Source: Burkholderiales bacterium 67-32 (GTDB lineage Bacteria; Pseudomonadota; Gammaproteobacteria; Burkholderiales; Burkholderiaceae_B). From it: a stretch of 64,000 nt of DNA. Within the stretch, counting starts at the first letter, position 1, and each line of letters starts with the position of its first letter. Below, piece after piece: positions 887 to 21,297 of this stretch. Made by a program: the position numbers and the translations under genes. Below the pieces are notes generated by a model. The model saw only the letters and a program-made list of their open reading frames with translations. It was not told the origin of the DNA and ran no database searches. The DNA is taken from contig MKUP01000026.1 in NCBI GenBank assembly GCA_001898625.1, forward strand, positions 62,001-126,000, read 5' to 3'.

Positions 887-1675
887 TCAGCGTCCGCGAA
901 CGCCGGAGCGATATTCCCGCCAGCAGATGGCGAAGAACCGGGGGTCTTCCTTCAGATAGCGCCGCCACAGCCTGCCGGGATTGCTGAGCAGGCGCCAGAG
1001 CCATTCCATGCCCATCCGCTGGACCAGGCGCGGCGCGCGCCGTTGCAGGCCGATGGCGAATTCCATGGCCGCCCCCACGCACAGCACCAGCCCGTGGGGC
1101 AGCGTGGCGGCATAGCGGCCGGCCCAGGTCTCCTGCTTGGGCATGCCCAGGCAGACGAAGACGAGGTCGGGCGCCAGGGCACGGATGCGGTCGGCGGCTT
1201 CGCGCCCTTCGTCGCCGAGCGGGTCGAACCGCATCGACGGCGTCATCACGGTGACGTCGATGCCGGGATAGGTGGCGGCGAACCGGCTTTCCAGCATGGG
1301 GCCGTCGCCCGGCATGCCACCCAGGATGGCGATCTTCCAGCCATGCGCGACCGCCTGCCGGCAGAGCGCCACGAACAGGTCCGAGCCCGTCACGCGCTCG
1401 GGCAGCGGACGGCCCAGCAGGCGGCTGGCCCAGACGATGGGCATGCCGTCGGCGAACAGGTACTCGGCCTGGCGGTAGATGGGCTGGAGATCGGGCTGCT
1501 TGTCCAGGCGCACCACGTGGTCGACATTGGGGGTCGACACGATGCCCGCCGGTCCGCGCCGGCTGGCGACGGCGTCGGTCAGGATCGCGACGGCCTCGGA
1601 GAAGGTCGCCGCGATGATATCCAGGTCGAAAAGCCGCATCCGGACGATATCGGGCTGGGCAGGGTGTGTAGGCAT
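887..1675 (-). CDS. WecG/TagA/CpsF family glycosyltransferase (GT26)
   Basis: This 262-residue cytoplasmic or membrane-associated glycosyltransferase probably adds the second sugar to the undecaprenyl-linked primer. Family signatures are visible: STPNVDHV near residue 47 (the T-x-N-x-D type active-site motif), FADGMPIVWASRLLG, a GG-P loop near residue 120, CLGMPKQE near residue 175, and the C-terminal RMGMEWLWRLLSNPGRLWRRYL typical of TagA proteins. Length is normal for the family. The ATG at 1675 is used; an internal ATG at 1639 is possible. The gene is transcribed with the downstream sugar transferase and divergently from the export genes, so it shares the 1676-1890 promoter region with wza. 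Confidence 0.9.
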   Translation of the reverse strand: MPTHPAQPDIVRMRLFDLDIIAATFSEAVAILTDAVASRRGPAGIVSTPNVDHVVRLDKQPDLQPIYRQAEYLFADGMPIVWASRLLGRPLPERVTGSDLFVALCRQAVAHGWKIAILGGMPGDGPMLESRFAATYPGIDVTVMTPSMRFDPLGDEGREAADRIRALAPDLVFVCLGMPKQETWAGRYAATLPHGLVLCVGAAMEFAIGLQRRAPRLVQRMGMEWLWRLLSNPGRLWRRYLKEDPRFFAICWREYRSGVRGR

Positions 1676-1836
1676 GTCGAAATGGAGGACGGGCGTGGTG
1701 AGCGGGGCAGAAGGAATGCCGGCAGAATGCTACAAAAAATTGCGCCTGTTATTTCCCGGCTTGGAGTTGTTTGCTGTTCCTTTGCCACGCTGTTCTGCGA
1801 GAATGTCGCACCCGCGGTCCGTCCCTGATCCCCCTC

Positions 1837-1842
1837 TATAAT
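1837..1842 (+). promoter_or_regulatory. Perfect -10 hexamer (TATAAT) for the EPS export operon
   Basis: TATAAT lies 48 bp before the TTG start at 1891, in the divergent gap between the WecG/TagA gene and the export gene. I see no good TTGACA-like -35 at 16-18 bp spacing, so an activator may be needed. A transcript starting near 1849 would have a leader of about 40 nt. Confidence 0.45.
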
Positions 1843-1890
1843 CGGCGTGATGATTTTAGCGGGCGTTTCCGTGACTTCAATGGAGTGGTT

Positions 1891-2772
1891 TTGAGGCAAT
1901 TACGCATATGTCTGCCCAGGATGCTGGTGGCGCTGGTGGCGTGGCTGGCGCTTGGTGCCGCCTACGCCGCCGATGAGATGCCTCATCCCGGCCGTCTGGC
2001 GCCGGCAACCATCGTTCCCTCCGAAGTCGAGGGGGGCGCCGTCGCTACCGTGGGGCCGGGCGACACGCTGTACCTCACCGTCTATGGCCAGCCCGAACTG
2101 GCCGCCCAGGTCACCCTCGACGTCCGCGGACACATCGTGGTTCCCTTCCTGGGCGACATGGCCGTCGGGGGCGAGGCGCCCTCGGCCATCGCCAAGCGGA
2201 TCGCCGACGGACTGCGCCAGCGCGGATACCTGAACGATCCCCAAGTGGCGATCGAGGTGCTGCGGGTACGCAGCCGCATGGCGTCCATTCTCGGCAGCGT
2301 CGCCAAGCCTGGCCGTTATCCGATCGAGGGCAGCCTGACGCTGCTGGAGTTGCTGGCCCAGGCCGGCGGCCTGAAGGACAACGCCGACGACGTGGCCGTC
2401 GTCCTGCGCAAGGACGTCCAGGCTCAGGGCGGCCAGCGCCGCATGGAGTTGCTGATTGGCAACAAAAGCCTGCCCGAGCGTCCCGTCGAAGACCTGTCGT
2501 TGCAGGCTGGCGACGTCGTCTACGTGCCGCAGGCCAAGGTTTTCTACATCTACGGCGAAGTCACGCGGGGGGGCGCCTATCCCATGGAGCGGGGCCTGAA
2601 CGTGATGCGCGCGCTGTCGCTGGCCGGCGGGTTGACGCAGCGGGCTTCCGAGCGCCGCATCAGCATCAGCCGGCCGGATCCCGACACGGGCGAGCAACGC
2701 AAGCAGCGCGTCAACCTGGACGATCCGGTTGCCGCCGGCGACGTCATCTACGTCGACGAACGCTTCTTCTAG
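1891..2772 (+). CDS. Polysaccharide export protein, Wza/BexD-like (Poly_export + SLBB)
   Basis: This 293-residue periplasmic/outer-membrane export component of the EPS machine is encoded here. I chose the TTG start at 1891: GGAG lies 5 nt upstream, and it gives a clean signal peptide (RQLR n-region, MLVALVAWLALGAAYA, cleavage AYA|AD). The mature protein opens with the Poly_export domain (GPGDTLYLTVYGQPEL, about residues 50-130), followed by two SLBB-like soluble ligand-binding domains (about 140-180 and 225-275; GSVAKPGRYPIEGSLTLLEL and YGEVTRGGAYPM). E. coli Wza is a lipoprotein, but no lipobox cysteine is present here, so this one is predicted to be processed by signal peptidase I. It is the first gene of the plus-strand export/modification group. 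Confidence 0.88.
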   Translation: MRQLRICLPRMLVALVAWLALGAAYAADEMPHPGRLAPATIVPSEVEGGAVATVGPGDTLYLTVYGQPELAAQVTLDVRGHIVVPFLGDMAVGGEAPSAIAKRIADGLRQRGYLNDPQVAIEVLRVRSRMASILGSVAKPGRYPIEGSLTLLELLAQAGGLKDNADDVAVVLRKDVQAQGGQRRMELLIGNKSLPERPVEDLSLQAGDVVYVPQAKVFYIYGEVTRGGAYPMERGLNVMRALSLAGGLTQRASERRISISRPDPDTGEQRKQRVNLDDPVAAGDVIYVDERFF

Positions 2773-2783
2773 CCGGAGCGGGC

Positions 2784-4259
2784 GTGCGCGCGCACCAGCG
2801 TTCCTCTGTCTGGCAGCCGGCGATACCGCTGGCGGCAGTCGTGTTGATGTGTGCTGCCCGGCCCGCGGGTGCCGCGCAGCCCGGCGCCGATGCGATGATC
2901 GACGCGGTCATCGCCAGGACGGTGGGGGCCGTGGCGTCCAAACCCGCCGAGCCGCCCGCTCCTGCGGCGCCGGCGCTTTCCCAGGGCGCGCGCGCGGATG
3001 CCGGCCAAGGGCCTTTGACGCGGCGCGGCCTGGGCGCGGGGTCGCCGGTCTTTCCTGAAGGCATCGAATACTCGGTGCAGATCTCGCGCGTGATCCAGCA
3101 GGTCAGCAATCCCTATCGCCTGCCGGACACGGCGGGGGACCGGCGGCACAGTGATCTTGCGGTGGGCGACGAGGTGCGCGCGGCCGCCATCATTCCCCTG
3201 GCGTCCGAGCGTACGCGGCTCCTGGCCTCGGCGGCCTTCGGCAATGTCGACTACCGGGACCAGGGGCAGCTCGACCACCATCCCCACGCGCTCAAGACCA
3301 CCTTGCAGTGGCGCGCGGGGGACCTGCTGCAGGGCAGCGCCTCGGTTTCCGACCGGGTCCGGCTCAACCGCTACATGGCCAGCAGTTGGCCCGAGCGCGA
3401 CCTGCTCAAGCAGCGGGTGTACAACGCCGACGTCGGCCTGCGCGTGACCGAGTCGCTGACCCTGCCGATCCTGAGCGTGTCGCGCACGTCCTCGCGCAAC
3501 GAGTTCGCGCTGAACCAGCAGCTGTACAACAGGGACGACAGCCAGGTGCAGATCGCCGCGCGCCTGATGGGGCGGGACAATTCCTACGTGATGGCCGGCG
3601 TGTCGCGGGTACGCAGCAGCTATCCCGATCGCACGCCGCTGCAGATACAGCAGTTGGACCGGGCCTACACCGACACCGAATTCTTCCTGAACAGCATCTG
3701 GCACTACAGCGCCAGGACGGCCCTCGAGGGCTACGCGGGCTGGCGCCAGCGGCGGTACTCGACGCTGACCGACCGCAACGTGGATCTCGTTACCGCCGAG
3801 CTGCGCGGCTACTGGGACTACTCGGTGAAGACCGCTTTCCACGTCCACCTGTGGCACCGGCCGTTCGGCAACGAGGAAGATCCTTCCACCCTGTACTCCA
3901 CCTTGACCGGCGGCCGGGTGACCATGCGCTGGCAGGCGGGCGAGAAGACCTGGCTGTCGCTGAACGTCGTGCGCGAGCGGCAGAAGAACTATCGCATCGG
4001 TGCGGGCGGCACGTCCGAGACGATGAGCTGGCGCGTGGGGCCGCGCCTGGAGTGGCAGATGAACCCGCGTGTCCTGCTGACCCTGGACGGCTGGCGCGAG
4101 CGCGTCAGCGGGGCGGGGTATCCGGGCTACGGCGGCACGGTGGTCCGCGCCGGCGTGACCTTGATGTACGACAATGGCTCGCCGCGCCCGTCGCGCCTGT
4201 ACATGCGCGAGGAGTGCGACGCACCCCGCTACCTGGATACCCGGATGTGCGACCAATGA
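2784..4259 (+). CDS. EpsL-like outer-membrane beta-barrel protein of EPS locus
   Basis: This is a 491-residue predicted outer-membrane beta-barrel. A GTG start at 2784 has GGAG 5 nt upstream and lies 11 bp after the export gene. The signal peptide ends near AARPAGA|AQPG. A low-complexity Ala/Pro linker follows, then about 400 residues of alternating hydrophobic/aromatic strands with no long hydrophobic helix (for example YSVQISRVIQQVSNPYRLP, WRVGPRLEWQMNPRVLLTLDG). This matches the EpsL/PF10082 barrel proteins found in exosortase-B-type EPS clusters, where they are assumed to help polymer leave the cell. The C-terminus ends with two cysteines (EECDAP...DTRMCDQ) rather than the usual aromatic barrel signal, which is odd. 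The function is inferred from family and context. Confidence 0.78.
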   Translation: MRAHQRSSVWQPAIPLAAVVLMCAARPAGAAQPGADAMIDAVIARTVGAVASKPAEPPAPAAPALSQGARADAGQGPLTRRGLGAGSPVFPEGIEYSVQISRVIQQVSNPYRLPDTAGDRRHSDLAVGDEVRAAAIIPLASERTRLLASAAFGNVDYRDQGQLDHHPHALKTTLQWRAGDLLQGSASVSDRVRLNRYMASSWPERDLLKQRVYNADVGLRVTESLTLPILSVSRTSSRNEFALNQQLYNRDDSQVQIAARLMGRDNSYVMAGVSRVRSSYPDRTPLQIQQLDRAYTDTEFFLNSIWHYSARTALEGYAGWRQRRYSTLTDRNVDLVTAELRGYWDYSVKTAFHVHLWHRPFGNEEDPSTLYSTLTGGRVTMRWQAGEKTWLSLNVVRERQKNYRIGAGGTSETMSWRVGPRLEWQMNPRVLLTLDGWRERVSGAGYPGYGGTVVRAGVTLMYDNGSPRPSRLYMREECDAPRYLDTRMCDQ

Positions 4260-10816: not shown

Positions 10817-12099
10817 GGCAAGGCCTCCCGCGTGCCGGCCGCCGTCTCGGCGCGGCGTATCTCGGCTCGCGTGCAGACCAGGACGGCGGTGATGTAGAAC
10901 AGTTCGCCGCACAGGACGCCGAACGGCGCGCCGGTCGCGCCCCAGCGCAGCATCGCCGCATGGCAGATGGCCAGCGACAGCAGCGCCGATCCCAGCGTGA
11001 TCGCGGTCAGCAGGCGCAGCCGTTGCCGCAGCAACAACAGGAGCATCAGCGGATCCCGCAGCGACATGACCAGGAACACGGCCGCCCATAGCTGGAACAG
11101 GACGTCGCGCTGCGCGAAATCCTTGCGCATCAGGTCGATGAAGATCCAGTCGCGCAGCAGCCAGGCCATGCCCAGGTAGACCAGCGTCATCGCCCCCAGG
11201 ATGGCGGAGAACAGCGCGAGGCGCCGGAAGGTCGCGCGCGGCCCGAGTTCGTGCAGCCAGCCCGAGGCGATGGGTGTCAATTGCCTCTGCACACCGGCCG
11301 TCACCAGGTTCACGGGCATCATGACGAGCCGGGACGCGGCCAGGGCGGCCACGGCCGTCAGGTCCAGCGTGGCCGCGGCCAGGAAGCTGTAGCCCTGGTT
11401 GAACAGCCAATAGATGACGCCGCCCGAGGCCGCCCAGAAGCCGACGTGGGCGATCTCGCGCATGCGGCCCGGCGGGGCGCCGGCATCCATGTCGTCGCGC
11501 AGTGCGCGGCGCAGCAGCCTGCCGCATGCCAGCGCGGACAGCGCGGCGCCGCCCAGCGCGATCGTGGCGGCGATGGGCTGGTGCATGGCCAGCAGGCCCC
11601 CGGCGATCAGGCCCGCCACGTAGACGGTGTCGGCGGCCAGGACCGCGTGCGGCCGTTGGTAGACGAGCAGGATGCCGCGGAAATATTCCCGATAGGTCGC
11701 GGCGGCCAGCAGGGCCACCGCCGCGATGCAGACGGGCAGGGCGTCGGGCTGCAGCGCGTCCATCGCCCAGGCCAGCCCGATGGCGGCCAGCGCCACGGCG
11801 CTGCCGGCCAGGGTCCAGCGCCGCTGGTCCCGCCACAGGCCGCCTATCCACGACCGGCGCGCGTCGGCGTCCAGGCCGGGCAGGCGTATCACCAGCGGCG
11901 TCGAGATGAAGGTGCCTTGCAGTGTGGTGGCGAGCATCATGCCGTTGAAGGCCAGCACGTAGTACCCGTATTGGGTCTCGCTGGCATAACGGATCAGGAT
12001 CAGGCCGACCAGGAAGTTGGCGCCGGACAGCAGCGCCTGGTCGACGATCGAGCTGCCGAACAGCCGTACCAGCCGGGAAGAGAACGGCGAGCCCGTCAT
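10813..12099 (-). CDS. Wzx-like lipid-linked oligosaccharide flippase
   Basis: This 428-residue polytopic protein of the polysaccharide-flippase (MOP) superfamily should move undecaprenyl-linked repeat units across the inner membrane. About 12 hydrophobic segments are visible, starting at SSIVDQALLSGANFLVGLILIRYASETQYGYYVLAF, a characteristic Wzx opening. The gene overlaps both neighbours by 4 bp (ATGA upstream, GTGA downstream). With the Wza-like protein, EpsF and the Wzy-like protein it completes a Wzx/Wzy-type pathway. Confidence 0.85.
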   Translation of the reverse strand: MTGSPFSSRLVRLFGSSIVDQALLSGANFLVGLILIRYASETQYGYYVLAFNGMMLATTLQGTFISTPLVIRLPGLDADARRSWIGGLWRDQRRWTLAGSAVALAAIGLAWAMDALQPDALPVCIAAVALLAAATYREYFRGILLVYQRPHAVLAADTVYVAGLIAGGLLAMHQPIAATIALGGAALSALACGRLLRRALRDDMDAGAPPGRMREIAHVGFWAASGGVIYWLFNQGYSFLAAATLDLTAVAALAASRLVMMPVNLVTAGVQRQLTPIASGWLHELGPRATFRRLALFSAILGAMTLVYLGMAWLLRDWIFIDLMRKDFAQRDVLFQLWAAVFLVMSLRDPLMLLLLLRQRLRLLTAITLGSALLSLAICHAAMLRWGATGAPFGVLCGELFYITAVLVCTRAEIRRAETAAGTREALP

Positions 12100-13295
12100 C
12101 GCCCGTCGCGCCGGGTCTTGACCCAGCCCTGTTCCCCGCGCCGCCGCAGCAGCGCATGGAGTTTCCACAGCACGAAGAACGGCGCGCGCGCCAGGTCGAG
12201 CAGCGCCCGCGGGCCCAGCGGTCCCAGTTGCCAGCCGCGCAGGATGTGCGCGCCCAGGATGATGCCCATCAGGACCGCCCAGCCCGCCCAGGCCCAGGCG
12301 GCGGGCGTGACCAGCGCGGCCAGCAGCGCGAGCACCAGCAGGGCGCCGATTTCCAGCGCGACGTAGCCGATGGGCAGGGTCAGCAGGTCCAGCGCGAGAT
12401 CCATGCAGATGCGGTCCGGCCGCGTCAGTCCGGCGCGCAGCAGCCTGCCGGTGTAGATCCGGATGACCGCGAAGCGGCCGCCTTCCCAGCGCTGGCGCTG
12501 CGAGACGGAGGCCGATCCCGAGGCCACCAGTTCGGCGTCGGCGTGGGCCTCGTCCACGTACCAGACGCGGATGCCTTCCAGGCCCAGGACGATTCCCTGT
12601 TCCAGGTCCTCGGTCAGCGAGACCGAGCGGAACGGGTGGTCGCGCAGCAGCGCATGGGTGAAGCCCATGCCATTGCCGCGCAGGCCGCAGGAGACGCGCA
12701 GCCGTTCCCGGGCGCGGCCGCGGACCGCGTGGAAGGCGCCGTAGGCGATGGTGATGATGCGCGTGCGCCAGGAGTCGTCGGGATTCAGCACGCCGTAGTT
12801 GGCTTGCAGGGCCTGTGCGCCTTGCTCGATGCGCGCGGCGAAGGCCGACAGGAAATTGGGCGAGACCACCGTGTCGGCATCGACCACGGCGATGGCGTCC
12901 GCCCATTGTCCGGCTGCGCTGTGGGCGATGCCATGGGCCAGCGCATAGCCCTTGCCGCGCAGCGTCTCGTCGCGGCGCTCGATGACCGTGGCGCCCGCGG
13001 CCGCGGCCAGTTGCGCGGTGTCGTCGGCGCAGTTGTCGGCGATCACGACGACGCGCATGCGGTCGGCGGGCCAGTCGATCTGCCGCAGGCTGGCGACCGT
13101 GCGCTCGATCACGGCGGCCTCGTTGTGGGCGGGGACCAGGATGTCGAAACGCAGCGAGCGCGATGCCGGCTGCGGCGTCGGCGCGCGCCACGACAACAGT
13201 GTCATCAGGCCCAGGTAGAGGCAGGAAATGGTGGCCGGAACGGCCGCCAGGCAAAGCAGGAAATAGATCAGTCCCACGGATGGATCCTCAGGCAT
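12096..13295 (-). CDS. Membrane GT2 glycosyltransferase with QxxRW motif
   Basis: This 399-residue inner-membrane family-2 glycosyltransferase has an N-terminal helix (LIYFLLCLAAVPATISCLYLGLMTLL), then a cytoplasmic GT-A domain with FDILVPAHNEAAVI, ADNCADDT, VVDADT (DxD), SLTEDLEQG (TED) and QRQRWEGG (Q-x-x-RW), and C-terminal helices around residues 290-350. The D, D, TED and QxxRW combination is the processive beta-glycosyltransferase pattern (cellulose or hyaluronan synthase-like), although smaller non-processive relatives also carry it. ATG 13295 overlaps the upstream gene by 8 bp and its stop overlaps the flippase start by 4 bp. Confidence 0.86.
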   Translation of the reverse strand: MPEDPSVGLIYFLLCLAAVPATISCLYLGLMTLLSWRAPTPQPASRSLRFDILVPAHNEAAVIERTVASLRQIDWPADRMRVVVIADNCADDTAQLAAAAGATVIERRDETLRGKGYALAHGIAHSAAGQWADAIAVVDADTVVSPNFLSAFAARIEQGAQALQANYGVLNPDDSWRTRIITIAYGAFHAVRGRARERLRVSCGLRGNGMGFTHALLRDHPFRSVSLTEDLEQGIVLGLEGIRVWYVDEAHADAELVASGSASVSQRQRWEGGRFAVIRIYTGRLLRAGLTRPDRICMDLALDLLTLPIGYVALEIGALLVLALLAALVTPAAWAWAGWAVLMGIILGAHILRGWQLGPLGPRALLDLARAPFFVLWKLHALLRRRGEQGWVKTRRDGR

Positions 13296-14211
13296 ATTCG
13301 CGATAATGCCAGCCCGCGAGCACGGACAGCTTGCCGGCATTCGCGCAGGCGCGCGCGAGCCAGTGCGCGCTGCGGTGCAGGCCGGTGGGCAGCGTGACCA
13401 GGGCAAGCAGCAGCGCGGCCAGCGCCTGCGCCAGCGCGCGGGCAAAGAACAGCAGCTTGTGCGCGAGTCCCGGGCCGCCGAGCTTGCCTTCCAGGAAGTG
13501 GCGGGCATAGTCCTGGCCCCCGCGCAAGGCGCGCGCCAGGATCCATTTCAGGCGCAGGCGGGACGGCACCACGTCCTCGGTGGCCACCGCCTCGTCGCTC
13601 CAGACGATCCGGGCGCCCTGGCCGACCAGCCGCATCAGCAGGTCGCCGTCCTCGCCGCCGGTCAGCCCGAACGAGGGATCGAACGGCCCCGCCGCCTCCT
13701 GGCCGGCCAGCCACCGCGCCGCGATCAGGGCGTTGCCGATGCGCATGACGTTCAGCGGCACGACCGAGCCCGTCGCCATCCGGGGGCCGTCGTAGAACCC
13801 GCCACGCCGGATCCAGGCCGGTGCGTCCGTGGGCACGATCGGCACCACGGGGGCCAGCACGCCATCGGCGGCATGGTCCAGCGCGGCGGCGTACAGCGCC
13901 TGCAGCCACGTCGCGCCCACGCGCTCGTCGTCGTCGACGAAGGCCAGCCAGTCCGCGCGCGCCTGGGCCACGCAGCGGTTGCGGGTCAGCGAGATGTTCT
14001 TTTCCGGCTGGATGTCGTAGATCAGGGGCGCCGGAAACGTCGCCCGGCGAGCCTCGACCACGGCGCGCGCGCTGCCGGCCGGATCGTTGTCCACCACGAC
14101 CACCTGGCCCGGCCCGAGCGTCTGCCCGGCAAGGTCGCCCAGCAACGCGTCCAGGCGCTCGGCGCGCCGATAGGTGGCGATGCAGACCGCGATGCGGGGC
14201 GGCTCATTCAT
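13288..14211 (-). CDS. GT2 family glycosyltransferase
   Basis: This 307-residue GT2 enzyme is predicted to extend the EPS repeat unit. ATG at 14211 (reading MNEPPRIAVCIATYRR) overlaps the acyltransferase stop by 8 bp; a longer start at 14250 would overlap more. VVVDNDPAG, NISLTRNRCVAQARADWLAFVDDDE (DxD near residue 98) and GGEDGDLLMRL are the canonical GT-A elements. A hydrophobic segment near residues 255-275 (ALAQALAALLLALVTLP) suggests membrane association. Confidence 0.86.
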   Translation of the reverse strand: MNEPPRIAVCIATYRRAERLDALLGDLAGQTLGPGQVVVVDNDPAGSARAVVEARRATFPAPLIYDIQPEKNISLTRNRCVAQARADWLAFVDDDERVGATWLQALYAAALDHAADGVLAPVVPIVPTDAPAWIRRGGFYDGPRMATGSVVPLNVMRIGNALIAARWLAGQEAAGPFDPSFGLTGGEDGDLLMRLVGQGARIVWSDEAVATEDVVPSRLRLKWILARALRGGQDYARHFLEGKLGGPGLAHKLLFFARALAQALAALLLALVTLPTGLHRSAHWLARACANAGKLSVLAGWHYREYA

Positions 14212-15247
14212 GCTGGACTCCGGTGCGGCGGGCCGAGCCGCCGCGGACATAGGCCTTGCCCAGGAACAGCAGCCGCGTGATGCCCCAGCGGTCGAGCACG
14301 ATCTCCAGCAGGATGGGCAGCAGGATGCCGGAGGCCAGGCCGCAGGCGAACAGCACCACTGGTTCGTGCACGTTCAGGTGAGTGAGCAGGATGCGGCAGC
14401 CGGCGGTGCCGAACACATGGAACAGGTAGATGGAATAGGAGTAGCCGCCTATGCGCACCAGCGGCTTCCATTGCCAGGCGATCGAATACAGGAAGGCGAT
14501 GCTGACGGCCGAGTACAACTGCCCCGACAGGGCGTCGGCTGACAGGTGCGGGACGTTCCAGCCGGCCAGGCTGGCCTGGTGCCAGACGAGGCAGGCGAGC
14601 AGGGCGGCGGCCGCGCAGGGCAGCCAGTAGCGCGGCAGCGAGGCGGGCGCGTCCAGGCCCGGCGTGCGGCGCAGCGCGACGCCCAGCAGGAAGTAGGGCA
14701 GCAGGTAGAACGCGCCGTTGATCGAGAACGGATCGGTGGCGAACCGGATGTGCGGCAGGATCAGGAAGGCCAGCAGCGTGGCCGTCCAGAGCCAGCGGCG
14801 ATTGCGGCCGGCCCCGGAGACGTCCAGGGCGTAGATGATGATGAAGATCAGGAACAGGGCCTGCAGGAACCAGAAGTGGTCGTAGGCGTAGAACATGAAC
14901 CGGAACCACGAGCCGCCGTGTTCGACGTTGACCTCGCCGACATGGCGCTGCACGTACTGGTAGACCTGTCCCACCATCAGCAGCGGCAGCAGCAGCCGCC
15001 GCACCTTGCCGCGGAAGAAGGGCACGAAATCGCCGGCCTGGGCGGGCCGGCGCATGGCATAGACGTAGCCGGACAGGAAGGTGAACAGCGGCATGCGCAG
15101 GTACACCAGGCTGTCGGAGAACCACCGCAGCCACGCGTCATCCGGCAGGCGCAGGCCGCGTACGTCGTCGCCGATCACGTGGTAGGCGACCAGCAGGATG
15201 CAGGCCAGGCCACGCAGGGTCTCGATGCGCAGGTCGCGTGAATTCAT
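14204..15247 (-). CDS. Membrane acyltransferase (acyltransferase family 3)
   Basis: This 347-residue integral membrane protein is the third acyltransferase of the operon. LRIETLRGLACILLVAYHVIG carries the family Arg and His; LVYLRMPLFTFLSGYVYAMRRP follows. About ten hydrophobic helices and the C-terminal YSYSIYLFHVFG are typical. ATG 15247 overlaps the hydrolase stop by 4 bp. It differs clearly from the other two acyltransferases, so this is not a recent tandem duplication. It could act on a different position or sugar. Confidence 0.87.
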   Translation of the reverse strand: MNSRDLRIETLRGLACILLVAYHVIGDDVRGLRLPDDAWLRWFSDSLVYLRMPLFTFLSGYVYAMRRPAQAGDFVPFFRGKVRRLLLPLLMVGQVYQYVQRHVGEVNVEHGGSWFRFMFYAYDHFWFLQALFLIFIIIYALDVSGAGRNRRWLWTATLLAFLILPHIRFATDPFSINGAFYLLPYFLLGVALRRTPGLDAPASLPRYWLPCAAAALLACLVWHQASLAGWNVPHLSADALSGQLYSAVSIAFLYSIAWQWKPLVRIGGYSYSIYLFHVFGTAGCRILLTHLNVHEPVVLFACGLASGILLPILLEIVLDRWGITRLLFLGKAYVRGGSARRTGVQHE

Positions 15248-17586
15248 GGACGGGTCTCCTGTCCGGCGGTGCCACGGACGATCTCGAACCACGGGCTGGA
15301 TTGTTCGGGCGCGGCGTACAGGTTCACGCGCACGGTCTGGTTTCCGGAAGCCTCCGTGGGCAGGGGCGCCATGCGTTGCCCCGCGCCATCCAGCGGGTGG
15401 ACGGCGACCGGACGGCCCAGCGTGGCGATCTCGAGTTCCAGGGGATGGCGGGCAAGCCAGGTGGGGCCGGGAGTGGCGCGGGGCGCCGACGGGCCCGCCG
15501 CGCCCGCATCGGGTTCGAGCGTGATCCACCCCGGCTTGCCCGGGTAAGGGATCACGCGCTTGGGACGCGCAGGCTGGGAGCCCGGCTGTCTGCCGGCGGT
15601 GGCGCTGCCCACGGTCAGCAGCATGTGGCCGGACTCGGCCAGGGCGTGTCCATCCAGGGGCGTCAGCAGCAGCGACAGCGGGGCCGTGGGACCGGTAGGC
15701 CGAACCGAATTGCCCGCGGCGGACAGGCGGCCGGCCAGCGGGCCGAACACGCCCCAGGCCTGGGGCGTATCGACGATGACGAGTCCTTGCGCCGGATCGT
15801 GGCGCACCTGTCCATCGGGCGTGGCCTGCTCCGGGGGCGGAGGGGGCGTCCAGGACGCATCGTCGGCGCCCGGCGCCTGGGCCAGCCGGAACGACCACGC
15901 ATGCGCGGGAACGACGGACAGCCGGCGCTCGACGCTGCGTTCGAGCGCGTCGGCCGAGGCCGACTGCGCGATGTCCAGCGCGGCGGATTCGGGCAGTGGA
16001 AGGTCGAGGTTGCGCGCCAGGGGACGGACGTATGCCGAGCGGAACAACTGCGCGCTTTGTCCGGCCAGGGCCAGCTTGCCCCAGTCTCCCGCCAGCGAGA
16101 AACGTGTCGGCCCCTCCGGCGGCGGCCATTGGTCCGCGTAGTCGAAGAAGAACAGCCCGTCCCAGTCCTGCAGCGAAGCGAGGGTCGCCATGATGGGGAG
16201 TATCGCGGAGCCGCCGGGGTTGGGATAGGGCTGATTGTATTCGCTGACGACGAAGGGTTTGTGGGCGTCGCGCCGCAGCGACAGGGCCAGCAGGCGGGAC
16301 AGTTCGGACGAGCCCGACGCGCTCGCGGCCGTCATGCGCCAGTCGTCCGCCCGGTCTTGCGCGCCGCCGGCGATGGGATGGGCGACGTACACGTGCTCAT
16401 CCACGTAGTCCATGTCCCGCTGCGAGAAGAGATTCATGATGCCGCCGAACGCTATCTGCGTGCCGGTGACGGGCACGCGCGGGTCGGTTTCCTCGTGCAC
16501 CACCCGACGCAGCCTGACGAAATAGGCGGCGTCGGTGTCGGCCAGGAATTGGACGAAATCGCGCTTTTTGCGGGGAGCCTCGACGCGCCCCTGTGCGCGG
16601 TCGACGCCCAGCCGCCGCAGCATCCGGTCCATGCGCTGGGCAGCGAGGTCCAACGGTCCGTCCGGGCCGTCCTCGTCCTCCGGCGCCGGCAGGGCGCCGG
16701 CCCAGGCGGTGCCCGGGCAATGGATCCAGGCGCGGCAAGCGGCCTCGACCGACCCGTGGCGTTCCACCAGCCATGCCTGCCAGCGGCGCTCCAGCTCGGG
16801 AGCATAGTGGCGCTGCCTCGCCTCGGCCCAGGCGCCGCGCCGGGTCCACGACCACAGCAGCGAAGCCTCGTTGTTGATCTCCACCATGGCCAGGCCGGGA
16901 TGGTTTTTCAGGCCCAGGCGCCGGATCAATTGGCGCGCATAGGCCTCCTGGCGGTCGACCAGGGCGGAGGTGTACACGTGCAGCGGCGAGGCGATCGAGG
17001 TCGAGTCCCGGCCGGCGTCCAGGCGCGGCAGGCCGTCCACCGCGGGCCGGAACCGGTAGCCCACGTGCAGGTTCAGGTTCACGTACAGCCCTTCGCGCGT
17101 CAGGGCCTCGATCAAGGCCCGCAGCCGTGCCACCGCCTCGGTGTGGAAGCTCGGGTGGGGGCCGGCGGTCAGGATGCCGATGGGCGCGCCGTCGGGGCCG
17201 GACGGCAGCGAGTCCAGGTGGTGCAGGCGGACCGCGTTGAATCCCAGCTTGCGCAGCCGCCGCGCCAGCGCGGGGGCCTGGTCGGCGGGCGGAAAGTTGG
17301 CGCCGAAGCTCAGGTTGATGCCGAACAGGCGGACCCGGCGGTCGTCCCCCGTGTCCGGGATGCCGTCGGCGCCGACGGCATAGAAATGGCCCTGCCGGGC
17401 GACGATGCGGTCGGCGCCGGACAGCGGTCGGTCGAGGGCGGATTGGTCGGGCGCGCCGCCCAGGCGATCCTCGTCGATCGTGTAGGGATAGGGTGCCGAG
17501 GCTGCCACCCGGGCGGCGGTGGGCGCCGGCGCGAAGGCGCACAGGCCGGCTGCCACCAGCCAGGCCCCCAGGCGCGGCGCCGTCAT
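15244..17586 (-). CDS. Secreted glycoside hydrolase, clan GH-A (cellulase/mannanase-like)
   Basis: This 780-residue exported hydrolase probably trims, edits or releases the EPS. ATG 17586 gives a signal peptide (APRLGAWLVAAGLCAFAPAPTAA). The catalytic barrel covers about residues 30-500: LFGINLSFGANFPP, GFNAVRLHHLD, GLYVNLNLHVGYRF, then AMVEINNEAS with the predicted acid/base E240, DYVDEHVYV, and FVVSEYNQPYPNPG with the predicted nucleophile E449. After FFFDYADQW a beta-rich C-terminal region of about 250 residues looks like an accessory domain. Clan GH-A placement is from the N-E and S-E motifs; the exact GH family is open. It overlaps both neighbours by 4 bp. Hydrolases inside EPS operons (PslG, AlgL) often act in the periplasm. 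Confidence 0.82.
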   Translation of the reverse strand: MTAPRLGAWLVAAGLCAFAPAPTAARVAASAPYPYTIDEDRLGGAPDQSALDRPLSGADRIVARQGHFYAVGADGIPDTGDDRRVRLFGINLSFGANFPPADQAPALARRLRKLGFNAVRLHHLDSLPSGPDGAPIGILTAGPHPSFHTEAVARLRALIEALTREGLYVNLNLHVGYRFRPAVDGLPRLDAGRDSTSIASPLHVYTSALVDRQEAYARQLIRRLGLKNHPGLAMVEINNEASLLWSWTRRGAWAEARQRHYAPELERRWQAWLVERHGSVEAACRAWIHCPGTAWAGALPAPEDEDGPDGPLDLAAQRMDRMLRRLGVDRAQGRVEAPRKKRDFVQFLADTDAAYFVRLRRVVHEETDPRVPVTGTQIAFGGIMNLFSQRDMDYVDEHVYVAHPIAGGAQDRADDWRMTAASASGSSELSRLLALSLRRDAHKPFVVSEYNQPYPNPGGSAILPIMATLASLQDWDGLFFFDYADQWPPPEGPTRFSLAGDWGKLALAGQSAQLFRSAYVRPLARNLDLPLPESAALDIAQSASADALERSVERRLSVVPAHAWSFRLAQAPGADDASWTPPPPPEQATPDGQVRHDPAQGLVIVDTPQAWGVFGPLAGRLSAAGNSVRPTGPTAPLSLLLTPLDGHALAESGHMLLTVGSATAGRQPGSQPARPKRVIPYPGKPGWITLEPDAGAAGPSAPRATPGPTWLARHPLELEIATLGRPVAVHPLDGAGQRMAPLPTEASGNQTVRVNLYAAPEQSSPWFEIVRGTAGQETRP

Positions 17587-18887
17587 GGCGTGTCCCGGCG
17601 GGCAAGCTGGAGCCGCGCCGACACGGTGACGGACGAGAAGATCAGCACCATGTTCTGGAGCGAGACGTCCCGCAGGAACTGGCTTTCCGAGAAATTGCTG
17701 ATGACCATCAGCACCAGGATGGAAAGATGCAGGGCCGCTTCGTCGCGATCGACCCGCATCAGCAGGAACAGCGACACCAGGTGCCACAGCAGCAGCCCGA
17801 TGAAAAGCACGAGGCCGACGATGCCGATCTCGTTCAACAGGTCGATGTAGCCGTTGTGCCCGTGGGAGGGCATCCAGCCGAACTCGTCGGCGATGAACTG
17901 GGCCGGCCCGCCTTCCCCGATCCAGAAGGCGCCGTAGCCGATGCCGAAGGTCAGGTGCTGCCGGGCTGCGACCAGCACCAGCCGCCAGATCTCGGTGCGG
18001 CCGGTCAGGTCGGGGCTCTTGTTGAGCAGCGTGGCGATCGGCGAGATCACGTCCTGCCACGTGGGCAGGCGCCCGGTCGCGATGTAGAAGACGTAGGTCA
18101 GCGCCACCAGCAGCGACAGCCCCACCAGCGAGGCGATCAGGCCGGCATGGCTGTCCCGCACCCAACGCTGGCGCAGCGCGAGATAGATGGCGATGCCGAC
18201 CACCGTCACCACCATGGACGTCGTGCTCTTGGACATGAACAGCACGAAGAGGCTGAACAGCGTGGCCGCCACCGTGCGGCCCAGGGGCAGGCGCCGTTCC
18301 ATGCATTCGCGCAGCCACAGCATCACGCACAGCCCGGCCACCGCGCCCAGCAGATTCTTCTGCCACATGATGCCGCGCCAGGCGCCGTCCAGGAACAGGT
18401 CGACGCCGATATGGGGCAGCGCCACCGCGACGAAGGCGGACACCAGGACCAGCGCCGACAGCGTGCCCAGCAGGGCGTGGGAGAACTGGCGCGGCCTCGC
18501 GATCGGGGGCGAGATGACGATGCCCGTCAGCAGCAGCCCGCCCAGCAGGATGACCCGTTTGACCGTGACGTTGGGGGCCGGCGACCACGCGATCGAGGCC
18601 GCGCAGTAGATCAGCAGCAGGATCAGGAACGGATTCATGCGCCGGAAGATGCCCAGCGCCTCGGCGGGATGCCGGTAGGCCAGCCAGCCGGCGGTCAGGA
18701 AGATGGTGCCGAACTGGATCTGCCGCAGCAGCGAGCCTTCCGCGATCTGGTGCCCCGCCTCGGGGCCGAGTTCGCCCATCTGGAAGGTCGTCGGCACCAG
18801 CGAGCAGATGAAGCAGAGCGCGACCAGCGCGCCGATCAGGAAGTGATCGAGGCGCCGCGCCGAGGCCGGGCCGTCCAACTCATGCAC
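17583..18887 (-). CDS. O-antigen ligase/polymerase family protein (Wzy-like)
   Basis: This roughly 434-residue polytopic inner-membrane protein has about 11 hydrophobic segments and a large periplasmic loop (about residues 280-360) containing LTGRTEIWRLVLVAARQH and SHGHNGYIDLLNEIGIVG, the Wzy_C/WaaL signature (RxxxW and HxxxxxxxxE-G). It should polymerise repeat units during Wzx/Wzy export. I prefer the GTG at 18887, which gives the 8-bp overlap seen at other junctions. A GTG at 18932 would add 15 residues and overlap epsG by 53 bp. Neither has a convincing ribosome-binding site, so translation probably depends on coupling to epsG. Confidence 0.85.
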   Translation of the reverse strand: MHELDGPASARRLDHFLIGALVALCFICSLVPTTFQMGELGPEAGHQIAEGSLLRQIQFGTIFLTAGWLAYRHPAEALGIFRRMNPFLILLLIYCAASIAWSPAPNVTVKRVILLGGLLLTGIVISPPIARPRQFSHALLGTLSALVLVSAFVAVALPHIGVDLFLDGAWRGIMWQKNLLGAVAGLCVMLWLRECMERRLPLGRTVAATLFSLFVLFMSKSTTSMVVTVVGIAIYLALRQRWVRDSHAGLIASLVGLSLLVALTYVFYIATGRLPTWQDVISPIATLLNKSPDLTGRTEIWRLVLVAARQHLTFGIGYGAFWIGEGGPAQFIADEFGWMPSHGHNGYIDLLNEIGIVGLVLFIGLLLWHLVSLFLLMRVDRDEAALHLSILVLMVISNFSESQFLRDVSLQNMVLIFSSVTVSARLQLARRDTP

Positions 18888-19782
18888 TCCGCGAACGAAG
18901 TCCCGGTTTTCGTCCCGAAGCCCCCCGGGCACCCGCGAATTCGTTGTAGACCGCGCCCAGGATCTCGACGCCGGCGCTGCGCAACTGGTCCGTGGCTGCG
19001 CGCATGGCCTTGAGCGAGCTGCGGTGCTGGCGTGCCAGGAGTACGCACGCGCCCACCTGACCGGCGATGATCTGCGCGTCGGCGGACAGCGTCGCCGACG
19101 GCGTGTCGACGACGAAGGCGTCGATGCGCTGGTCGAGTTCGTGCATCAGTTGCCGCAGGGCCGACGTGCCCAGGATCTCGGTCGGATTGGGCGGACGCGG
19201 TCCGCGATCGATGACCTGCAGGAACGGGAAGTCGGGCAGCGGCGGGCTGGCCTCGACCACAGAACGGCCAGCCAGCATGGTGGACAGTCCCGCCGCCTGC
19301 TGTACGCCCAGCAGGCTGGGGCGGTCCGGGCCCCGCATGTCGGCGTCGATGTAGAGCGTGCGCAGGCCGGCCTGGGAAAAGGCGATGGCCAGGCTGGCGG
19401 CCAGGTAGCTCTTGCCTTCGCCGTCATCCGGGCTGACCACGGCGAAGGCGATCCGGCGTTGGTCGCCGAAATGCAGCGACAACTGGGTGCGGATCCGCCG
19501 GATGGCCTCGGCCTCCGGGCCGAAGGGCGCGTGGGCGATGGACAGCATCGGCGAGACGCCGGACTGCGGCGAAGCCGAGATCGCGTAGCGGAATTGCTGG
19601 GCCAGTACGGTCCGTATCTGTTCCTCGGTCAGCAGGCCGAGCCGGATCGCGGCTTCGCCGAAGCGCAGCCCCTGTTCGGCCTGGACCGCGGCGATGCGCG
19701 TCGCCTGTTCCGGGGTCAGCAGGCCGGCCTGCTGGAGCAGCTCTCCCAGGCGGCCGTAGTCGTTGGAAATGGGAGGCGTCAT
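18880..19782 (-). CDS. epsG: EpsG-type chain-length kinase with N-terminal MshEN-like repeats
   Basis: This 300-residue cytoplasmic partner of EpsF is ParA/BY-kinase-like. Residues 11-34 and 40-63 are two tandem 24-residue repeats separated by exactly five residues; both fit R-[LF]-G...G-L-L...Q, the pattern of the MshEN (GspE N-terminal) cyclic-di-GMP-binding domain. The kinase domain follows: Walker A SPDDGEGKSYLA, Walker A' LRTLYIDADMRGPDRPSLLG, and AFVVDTPSATLSADA (Walker B). A C-terminal tyrosine cluster, usual in Wzc/CapB autokinases, is missing: the tail GASGRKPGLRSRSA has no Tyr and the nearest is in GAVYNEFAG. ATG 19782 overlaps the epsF stop by 4 bp. It resembles the EpsG proteins of exosortase-B-linked EPS loci. 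Confidence 0.86.
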   Translation of the reverse strand: MTPPISNDYGRLGELLQQAGLLTPEQATRIAAVQAEQGLRFGEAAIRLGLLTEEQIRTVLAQQFRYAISASPQSGVSPMLSIAHAPFGPEAEAIRRIRTQLSLHFGDQRRIAFAVVSPDDGEGKSYLAASLAIAFSQAGLRTLYIDADMRGPDRPSLLGVQQAAGLSTMLAGRSVVEASPPLPDFPFLQVIDRGPRPPNPTEILGTSALRQLMHELDQRIDAFVVDTPSATLSADAQIIAGQVGACVLLARQHRSSLKAMRAATDQLRSAGVEILGAVYNEFAGARGASGRKPGLRSRSA

Positions 19783-21167
19783 GCTTGGGCTCCGATGGTG
19801 CCGAGCACGGGCAGCCCGAGATCGTGAGTGAGGTCGTCCTCGCAGCGGACGCGGCGCAGCGCCAGTTCCAGCGCCAGCGCCAGCATCAGTCCCAGGACCA
19901 GGCCGACCGGCACGCCCAGGGCCATGGACCGCAGCAGGCCGGGGTTGGACGGAGCGCTGGGCGCTTCGGCCTGGCGCAACACGGTCGCGCCGGGCAGGGT
20001 GATGCTGCTGGCCATCAGCAGCGAGTCGTACTTCTGCACGGCGGCGTTGTAGACCTGCTGGGCGCCCGCCAACTGCTGGCGGTACGACGCCATCCGGTCG
20101 CGGTATTGCATCAGGTCGAAGACTTTCTTGCGCTGTTCCTCGATGGCGCCTTGCAGCGAGGTTTCCTGCAGGGCCACCCGGGACGAATCGCTGGCCTGGC
20201 GGTCCACCGCCGCGCGCGATTCGCGGGCCAGTTGGCCGCTCAGGTTCTGCTGCTCCTGGTGCAGGCTCTTGACCGTCGGATGGTTGACGCCCAGGGTGGC
20301 CTGCACTTCCAGCAGCCGCTGGTTGACGGCGTTCAGGCGGTCCTTCAGGGCGTTGATGACCGGCAGGCTGCCGATCTCGGGGATCTCGTCGGGACGCATG
20401 CCGTTCCTGATCATGGCCTGCGTGGTCTGGCGCTGCGCCGCGGCCTGCTGGCGCTGGGCCTGGTATTCGGCCAGTTCGCCCAGCATCTGCCGCAGCCGCT
20501 GTTCCTCCAGGCTTTCCGAGTTGGGCAGGTCGATGACGCCGGTCTCGCGCTGGTAGGCGCTGAGTTTTTCCTGGATCGCGTCCACTTGTCCGCGCAACTG
20601 CTCCAGTTGCGCGGTGTATTGCTCGGTGCGCGAACGGGCGGCCTGGTTGGCGATTCCCTGGCTCAGGGCGATATAGGCGTCGACCACCGCCTGGGCGTGG
20701 ATGCGGGCCGATTCCGCGTTCCGGTCGGTGTACGAAATTTCCAGCACCCGGCTGCCGCGCTTGTTGGCAACCTCGGTATTCTTGATGATCCGGGTGATCA
20801 GGCCGTCGCGCGCCCTGGCCTCGCCCACCTTGCCCGCCGCTTCGCGGAAATCGGCGCTCTCGTCCAGGTGCAGCTGGTCCACCACCTTCTCGGCGATGGC
20901 CCGGCTCTTGAGCATGTCGATCTGGGTCTGGAGATAGCTGTCGTCGAGCAGCGCGGAGAAGTTGCGGCCGGCGATGGGGTCGTTCTCGCGGTAGTCGACG
21001 TAGATGCTGGCCGTGGCCGACCACTTGGAGGCTTGCAGCAGCGAGATCGCCGCCGTCGCCACCAGGCAGGCGGCGGTGACGGCCGCGACCAGGGGCGCGC
21101 GGGCCCGCAGCATCGCGGCGATCTGCCGGACGGACAGGAGAGGAGAGGGGGCGGATGGCGAGATCAA
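19779..21167 (-). CDS. epsF: EpsF-like polysaccharide chain-length determinant (Wzz)
   Basis: This 462-residue inner-membrane co-polymerase is the first gene of the long minus-strand EPS operon. I prefer the TTG at 21167, which has AGGGA 5 nt upstream and puts the Wzz domain at the N-terminus (SVRQIAAMLRARAPLVAAVTAACLVATAAISLL). The ATG at 21242 would add 25 atypical residues with no clear ribosome site. The Wzz domain spans about residues 10-110 (WSATASIYVDYRENDPIAG, LDDSYLQTQIDMLKSRAIAEKVVDQL). Long periplasmic coiled-coil regions at about 170-370 carry LEQLRGQVDAIQEKLSAYQRETGVIDLPNSESL. The second transmembrane segment is GLLRSMALGVPVGLVLGLMLALALELALRR. The kinase is a separate downstream gene, as in EpsF/EpsG pairs. 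Confidence 0.87.
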   Translation of the reverse strand: MISPSAPSPLLSVRQIAAMLRARAPLVAAVTAACLVATAAISLLQASKWSATASIYVDYRENDPIAGRNFSALLDDSYLQTQIDMLKSRAIAEKVVDQLHLDESADFREAAGKVGEARARDGLITRIIKNTEVANKRGSRVLEISYTDRNAESARIHAQAVVDAYIALSQGIANQAARSRTEQYTAQLEQLRGQVDAIQEKLSAYQRETGVIDLPNSESLEEQRLRQMLGELAEYQAQRQQAAAQRQTTQAMIRNGMRPDEIPEIGSLPVINALKDRLNAVNQRLLEVQATLGVNHPTVKSLHQEQQNLSGQLARESRAAVDRQASDSSRVALQETSLQGAIEEQRKKVFDLMQYRDRMASYRQQLAGAQQVYNAAVQKYDSLLMASSITLPGATVLRQAEAPSAPSNPGLLRSMALGVPVGLVLGLMLALALELALRRVRCEDDLTHDLGLPVLGTIGAQA

Positions 21168-21297
21168 GTGTTTCCCTGGATAGCTGGCGGCCGGGGTGCC
21201 TGGCTGGCGCCGGCAAGACGGCTGGCCGCCGAATTGTGCCATCGAAGTCCGGTAGGCGGCATCCGGCGTTTATCCTTGTTTGACGGCATGCGCCGGC

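Follow-up and report, generated by a model that had tools for sequence, protein, structure and literature searches.

The EpsG protein encoded in a 64,000-nucleotide window of DNA from Burkholderiales bacterium 67-32 (contig MKUP01000026.1; "the window" denotes this whole stretch) combines an amino-terminal module homologous to the c-di-GMP-binding part of MshE with a P-loop domain of the BY-kinase type that retains a ring-assembly motif and has no carboxyl-terminal tyrosine cluster. We give about even odds (0.5) to the reading that c-di-GMP binding, not tyrosine autophosphorylation, controls the assembly of EpsG rings on the membrane co-polymerase EpsF. The MshEN_N domain and the kinase fold are both already known; MshEN_N together with a tyrosine-less BY-kinase-like protein is a new combination. 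Within the co-polymerase partner that serves a Wzy-type system, a c-di-GMP module would link the second messenger directly to polymer length. Moreover, a c-di-GMP switch would explain how a co-polymerase can work without the tyrosine cluster thought to drive others.

The stop codon of epsF and the start codon of epsG overlap as ATGA, so the epsG start codon is well placed. The product aligns with 270 of the 274 positions of the TIGR03029 EpsG model at 254.4 bits, below the curated equivalog cut-off of 313.8 bits, and falls within the EpsG branch of the tree described below; it is a member of the EpsG family without equivalog status. It is 95% identical to the EpsG of P. kullae and 91% to that of another Pigmentiphaga (Alcaligenaceae, Burkholderiales), which places the source genome in or close to that genus. 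The features of epsG, and its presumed partner gene, are these:

18883..19782, minus strand: EpsG, 300 residues, MshEN_N domain plus BY-kinase-type P-loop domain (TIGR03029 E 1e-75 at 254 bits, short of the 313.8-bit equivalog cut-off; TIGR01007 over its cut-off at 129.6 bits)
18880-18882, minus strand: epsG stop codon
19594..19752, minus strand: MshEN_N domain, residues 11-63 (53 residues), matching NF053729 positions 1-53 of 53 over cut-off and in register with MshE (5HTL)
19681..19752, minus strand: c-di-GMP motif I, residues 11-34, with Arg11, Gly13 and Gln34 kept and the Leu25/Leu29 equivalents being Ala27/Ala31
19594..19665, minus strand: c-di-GMP motif II, residues 40-63, with Arg40, Gly42, Leu60 and Gln63 kept and the Leu39 equivalent being Phe41
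19489..19509, minus strand: EX2RX2R ring-assembly motif, E92-R95-R98 (E/R/R in 102/105 EpsGs; role from PMC3795738)
19408..19434, minus strand: Walker A, residues 117-125, SPDDGEGKS, with Lys124 intact (Lys in only 18/105 EpsGs)
18883..18936, minus strand: carboxyl-terminal tail, residues 283-300, no tyrosine in the translation
19779..21242, minus strand: EpsF-like Wzz-type membrane co-polymerase, the presumed EpsG partner (TIGR03017 E 4.7e-78, below cut-off; PF02706 over cut-off; ATGA overlap with epsG)

An earlier note, made from the DNA letters and their open reading frames, had described two 24-residue repeats at residues 11-34 and 40-63 with a five-residue spacer. The translation bears this out: motif I reads RLGELLQQAGLLTPEQATRIAAVQ, motif II reads RFGEAAIRLGLLTEEQIRTVLAQQ, and exactly 5 residues separate them. 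The span that the note had assigned, 19590-19782, covers the start codon and the codons up to about residue 64; the domain itself occupies the smaller interval listed above.

Three kinds of comparison place these repeats in the MshEN_N family. First, NF053729, the NCBIfam 53-position model of the MshE-related c-di-GMP-binding motif (cut-off 38 bits), aligns over its whole length, with 42.4 bits for the complete protein and 46.1 bits for residues 1-75, the segment that the earlier note had proposed for a profile search. EpsG is the only place in its own genome over that cut-off, and the model matches 54/105 EpsGs at E<=1e-9. Second, phmmer with residues 1-75 aligned Vibrio cholerae MshE (5HTL) in register at E 1.2e-5; the best E-value, 1.3e-6, belonged to the three-domain PilF and was summed over several weak stretches. 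A profile built from the 105 EpsGs reached 5HTL with its amino terminus (E 7e-11) and CapAB/Wzc with its carboxyl terminus. Third, hhalign of the EpsG N-domain against 19 MshEN domains plus MshE gave 99.1% probability (E 9.9e-19, 40% identity), whereas 20 column-shuffled controls gave at most 1.64%. The reference rows came from 30 loci, of which 21 had motif matches and 2 of these were dropped as out of frame, leaving 19; with the 2 out-of-frame rows still in, the probability was 98.3%. Agreement among NF053729, 5HTL and hhalign establishes, at the level of sequence, that residues 11-63 are homologous to the c-di-GMP-binding MshEN_N module. From this we infer a four-helix-bundle fold.

The module is a family trait. 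For counts of conservation, 125 distinct sequences (the window protein included) were taken from whole-genome searches and cut at 85% identity, leaving 105 with the window protein among them. These were not chosen by a motif pattern; the queries were full-length EpsG models or the window protein, so that the set leans towards proteins bearing the N-domain. Another 80 named loci were left out of the counts because their search patterns themselves contained RFGEAA and a Walker-A stretch. Among 235 sequences with a profile match, 213 have the N-domain, and the other 22, all Wzc-type, served as controls; they are the best-scoring Wzc-type loci, not a random draw. A second control comprised XrtA kinases from 30 of 48 places. 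Motifs I and II together span exactly 53 residues in 104/105 non-redundant EpsGs.

An order-wide search (E<=1e-50, 399 genomes) returned 106 places in 98 genomes. The match starts no later than model position 21 at 103 of the 106, and the remaining three fall in Wzc-like frames of 721-844 residues. The query contains the N-domain, and matches without it could appear, but did so only in those Wzc-like frames. The N-domain is supported as a regular part of EpsG. In a fasttree phylogeny, EpsG, Wzc and XrtA proteins form three separate branches (support 96 for EpsG), with the window protein inside the EpsG branch. As all EpsGs sit on one branch, MshEN may have been gained only once and the tyrosine tail lost only once, in which case the two changes coincide in a single observation.

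Does the module bind its ligand? In MshE, as described in PMC5013675, each guanine is held by the backbone of Gly11 or Gly40 and by stacking on Arg9 or Arg38; Gln32 and Gln61 contact ribose and phosphate; and two hydrophobic clusters are formed, one by Leu25/Leu29/Leu39 and one by Leu10/Leu54/Leu58. The window EpsG keeps both arginines (Arg11, Arg40), both glutamines (Gln34, Gln63), both key glycines (Gly13, Gly42) and the second hydrophobic cluster (Leu12, Ile56, Leu60). The first cluster, the platform for Gua1, is changed to Ala27, Ala31 and Phe41.

The earlier note had called the arrangement the published MshEN layout. Layout and homology hold; the strict 2016 consensus of PMC5013675, which describes good binders and is not a curated family definition, is missed at six positions: 7 (Gln17), 17 (Ala27) and 21 (Ala31) of motif I, and 2 (Phe41), 6 (Ala45) and 17 (Ile56) of motif II. 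With the looser motif that Wang et al. 2016 used for searching, motif II passes and motif I fails at position 7 (Gln17) only. Ala27 looks recent, since the relatives with 95% and 91% identity carry Val27, and Phe41 may fill space, since its neighbours at positions 27 and 31 are smaller. PMC5013675 reports that changing any one conserved hydrophobic residue of MshE costs more than tenfold in affinity, and that ligand still stabilises the L25A protein. The changed Gua1 platform weakens the case for binding.

Mutagenesis papers were used in this analysis to draw up a minimal binding set. The PilF work reports that Lys or Leu in place of the first Arg still gives high affinity; that the position-3 Gly is needed for high affinity; that the non-binder GSPII-A regained binding only when both Gln and Arg for Ser were introduced; and that an engineered PilF domain lost binding when motif II began with Ser. 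The minimal set is complete in 27/105 EpsGs, one of which is the window protein. Among the 78 EpsGs that lack the complete set, 43 depart from it solely at position 1 of motif I. With Arg as the first residue of each motif and Leu at motif I position 11 (residue 21), the window EpsG is a better candidate for c-di-GMP binding than most EpsGs. We judge it likely, from these residues, that the window protein binds c-di-GMP.

For the family, the counts are uneven between the two half-sites, and they bear on a different view of the domain: that it is an MshEN-derived four-helix bundle whose c-di-GMP binding has been lost or become too weak, and which serves contact with EpsF or another Eps protein, as PilF GSPII-A or the N-domain of XpsE (GspE) would. 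A non-binding bundle could explain why motif I position 1 ranks among the most variable columns (46 of 53), with Arg in 20/105 EpsGs and Ser in 36/105, as well as the variability of platform positions 17 and 21 of motif I (mostly Ala, Val or Ile at residue 27; mostly Leu, Val, Ile, Ala or Met at residue 31). It fits less well with a second half-site that is strongly kept, with Arg40 in 94/105, Phe41 in 104/105, Leu60 in 96/105 and Gln63 in 104/105, or with the retention of Gln34 in 91/105 and of the two glycines that make backbone contacts, Gly13 and Gly42, in all 105. By these counts the first half-site is partly eroded. In the comparison proposed in the earlier note, both glutamines and Arg40 are well conserved and Arg11 is not.

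The known non-binders sharpen the question. Motif I position 11, where the MshE consensus is hydrophobic, is Lys or Arg in 79/105 EpsGs, and XpsE carries I19R there; the changes in XpsE, however, also include G11V, R38G, G40L and Q61V (PMC5013675). PilF GSPII-A is similar in sequence and is reported not to bind, whereas the window EpsG has the complete minimal set plus Leu at position 11. We rate loss of binding as doubtful.

The P-loop domain points to what a bound ligand could control. The window EpsG has the P-loop fold with Walker A (Lys124), A' (Asp146/Asp148) and B (Asp226), and TIGR01007 matches over its cut-off. Tail, Walker-A and ring-motif residues were counted in one joint alignment of EpsG, Wzc-type and XrtA proteins. 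No EpsG (0/105) has even two tyrosines in the tail. At least three are present in 20/22 Wzc-type proteins, the other 2 having one only, and in 30/30 XrtA kinases, as against 0/105 EpsGs. The Walker-A lysine, present in 22/22 Wzc-type and 30/30 XrtA proteins, is found in only 18/105 EpsGs; in the other 87 it is replaced, mostly by Arg, also by Ala, Val, Thr, Cys or Ser. The EX2RX2R motif, which forms half of the octamer interface according to PMC3795738, reads E/R/R in 102/105 EpsGs and 22/22 Wzc-type proteins, and its last place is Lys in 30/30 XrtA kinases. Of the marks of a BY-kinase, the window EpsG has the P-loop fold and the ring motif and lacks the carboxyl-terminal tyrosine cluster.

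These counts make control of a tyrosine autokinase unlikely as the output, given the absence of the cluster in all 105 EpsGs and the survival of the Walker-A lysine in 18. The label "kinase" for EpsG is doubtful, and the earlier note's "chain-length kinase" finds no support in that wording; the database name "tyrosine kinase EpsG", these results suggest, misleads for most sampled members. The minimal binding motif co-occurs with the Walker lysine (Fisher p 6e-5, 105 EpsGs). On the tree, however, the two changed independently too few times to decide, and those cases show no trend, so the co-variation was dropped as an argument.

The window protein itself may still be an active ATPase or kinase, because its Walker A is intact. 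This leads to a second alternative, in which EpsG binds c-di-GMP and the ligand controls, in place of ring assembly, a still active ATPase or kinase whose targets are other proteins such as sugar-nucleotide enzymes. Lys124, Walker A' and Walker B are all in place, and CapB2 lacking its tyrosine cluster is still able to phosphorylate CapO (PMC3795738). Across the family, however, the ring motif is nearly universal and the Walker lysine mostly gone, so catalysis is unlikely as a conserved function of EpsG, and we hold this alternative to be improbable.

In our preferred reading, c-di-GMP would control ring assembly, as follows. EpsG is a two-domain protein without a Wzz membrane part, in which MshEN_N (residues 11-63) is joined by a short linker to a P-loop domain of the BY-kinase type that has lost the tyrosine tail. 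With the membrane co-polymerase EpsF it presumably constitutes a split PCP-2-type system. According to PMC12220298, the octameric kinase ring of PCP-2 systems is believed to open when the tyrosine cluster is phosphorylated and to close when the phosphates are removed, with cycling tied to chain length. In EpsG, the MshEN_N module lies about 28 residues before the EX2RX2R motif. Bound between the two repeats, c-di-GMP may set the position of the nearby EX2RX2R helix, which would favour or block ring assembly on EpsF; ring assembly, in turn, would govern the length of the polymer chains or their export.

Most simply, c-di-GMP would have taken over the switch, since EpsG has the ring motif and a second-messenger module, and no tyrosine cluster. 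Taken as a single step, control of EpsG ring assembly by c-di-GMP is offered tentatively. Extended to Eps/methanolan-type systems of the Burkholderiales and some other proteobacteria, the proposal would be that a c-di-GMP-gated pseudo-BY-kinase has replaced the tyrosine phosphorylation cycle of PCP-2 systems, with EpsG rings assembling or opening on EpsF according to c-di-GMP at MshEN_N; in that general form it is doubtful. If true, the co-polymerase of a Wzx/Wzy-type pathway would be the point at which c-di-GMP acts on chain length or export, instead of a PilZ synthase, transcription or a glycosyltransferase. Direct c-di-GMP control of exopolysaccharides is best known in synthase-type systems: PilZ in cellulose synthase (PMC12220298) and NfrB (PMC8669469).

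Comparison with known systems shows what EpsG shares with each. V. cholerae MshE MshEN_N (5HTL, PMC5013675) shares with EpsG the arrangement of two motifs within 53 residues, at 40% identity across 53 columns, and EpsG keeps both Arg, both Gln and the equivalents of Gly 11, 18, 40 and 47. EpsG differs in having Ala/Ala/Phe for Leu25/29/39, in showing no match to Pfam MshEN (the second subdomain), and in carrying its module on a BY-kinase fold and not on a secretion ATPase. The GSPII domains A, B and C of Thermus PilF belong to the same family as the EpsG N-domain, with Lys or Leu for Arg reported as tolerated substitutions; unlike EpsG, PilF is a secretion ATPase with three tandem copies.

Escherichia coli NfrB, an exopolysaccharide glycosyltransferase, likewise has MshEN in a polysaccharide context. 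The NfrB model NF008411 matches EpsG weakly at residues 11-67 (E 0.071; E 0.0055 for the N-domain alone). NfrB MshEN binds c-di-GMP, and substitutions in it reduce a phage phenotype ascribed to NfrB-made exopolysaccharide (PMC8669469). There the domain is proposed to activate the glycosyltransferase domain, whereas EpsG sits in a Wzy-type cluster with a co-polymerase. The same paper notes that MshEN in general seems involved in protein phosphorylation and polysaccharide secretion.

The BY-kinases Wzc (PCP-2a) and CapAB (PCP-2b) share with EpsG the P-loop domain and EX2RX2R, and CapA/CapB, like EpsF/EpsG, have the co-polymerase encoded next door. Unlike them, EpsG has no tyrosine cluster, has mostly lost the Walker lysine in the family sample, and has the extra MshEN_N. 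The TIGR03029 EpsG family, which we take to belong to methanolan-type eps clusters, agrees with the window protein in domain order and in cluster type (relatives of EpsA, E, F, G, L and U). The window EpsG is closer to the canonical form, at motif I position 1 and in Walker A, than most of the family members sampled.

Pfam requires separate comment. It gave no MshEN match in the window at E<=1, and MshEN is absent from the families matched by the 105 EpsGs at E<=0.01. In three MshEN ATPases used as controls, however, the match to PF05157, "MshEN", begins at construct residue 62-63, after the c-di-GMP motif, and at residue 120 in that one of the three that has two tandem motifs. The Pfam model thus cannot see the motif, and its null result, rejected as evidence against MshEN_N in EpsG, counts for nothing here. 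EpsG has the binding half, MshEN_N, and no recognisable second MshEN half; Pfam-based surveys may miss such stand-alone domains, given that PF05157 misses the ligand-binding half in the three controls. The idea that the repeats are a chance resemblance in an ordinary helical amino terminus could draw on that null, and with NCBIfam, PDB-sequence and profile-profile matches in agreement it is refuted at the level of homology and deserves hardly any credence.

The open literature, among the matches listed, yielded no c-di-GMP test on EpsG or on any other BY-kinase; the supplementary tables of MshEN fusions in Wang et al. 2016 may include an EpsG. Joint matches that mention c-di-GMP were incidental, arising from reference lists (PMC9601211, PMC6325625) or from PilZ synthases (PMC12220298). 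In Herbaspirillum seropedicae, epsG::lacZ expression is reported to be about threefold higher in attached cells than in planktonic ones (PMC4195743); epsG is there called a glucosyltransferase gene and is perhaps not the gene for the EpsG kinase-type protein.

The host should be able to make c-di-GMP, as its genome has 20 GGDEF matches. The only one on the epsG contig is about 61 kb away. A strict GGDEF pattern, untried on controls, found no gene near EpsG in 60 loci and none in 20 Wzc loci; a bare pattern gave neighbours at 4/80 EpsG loci and 1/20 Wzc loci. By neither pattern was a dedicated diguanylate cyclase seen close to EpsG. An LMW-PTP gene was found near EpsG at 0/60 loci (of 80, 20 being too short on a side) versus 16/20 Wzc loci. 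It was equally missing near tyrosine-tailed XrtA kinases (0/20 loci, one of them incomplete), and its absence was dropped as an argument for a replaced switch. A crude pattern for PHP-type phosphatases, untried on controls, found none in EpsG or Wzc loci. Elsewhere in the genome of the window, a second locus (contig C23, 135500-151500) encodes a Wzc-type protein with a tyrosine-rich tail and, nearby, an LMW phosphatase.

The genes around epsG form an exopolysaccharide cluster: they encode relatives of EpsA, EpsE, EpsF, EpsL, EpsU and EpsD, together with a polymerase of the Wzy type and a deacetylase-like protein. Besides epsF and epsG, its features are:

17583..18932, minus strand: Wzy/O-antigen-ligase-type polymerase, encoded immediately downstream of epsG (PF04932 E 2.4e-18, over cut-off)
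12096..13508, minus strand: EpsU-like glycosyltransferase, start codon putative (NF041865 E 9.4e-128, below cut-off)
887..1675, minus strand: EpsA-like WecB/TagA/CpsF glycosyltransferase (NF041872 E 1.1e-52, below cut-off; TIGR00696 over cut-off)
1771..2772, plus strand: EpsE-like outer-membrane polysaccharide export protein (TIGR03028 E 1.1e-59, below cut-off)
2784..4259, plus strand: EpsL-like outer-membrane protein (TIGR03014 E 1.1e-31, below cut-off)

All Eps-named models, EpsG included, score below their curated cut-offs in the window, so the cluster is a divergent member of the Eps type.

Two further observations concern this cluster. At 1771-4259 on the plus strand, the gene for the EpsE-like OPX protein is followed at once by that for the EpsL-like outer-membrane protein; the pair is perhaps a composite OPX/beta-barrel translocon of the kind named in the title of PMC9601211. 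In addition, a long frame at 15244-18588 on the minus strand shows weak similarity to glycoside hydrolase family 5 (cellulase), with E 3.7e-4 and a score short of the cut-off, and perhaps encodes a hydrolase that cuts the exopolysaccharide.
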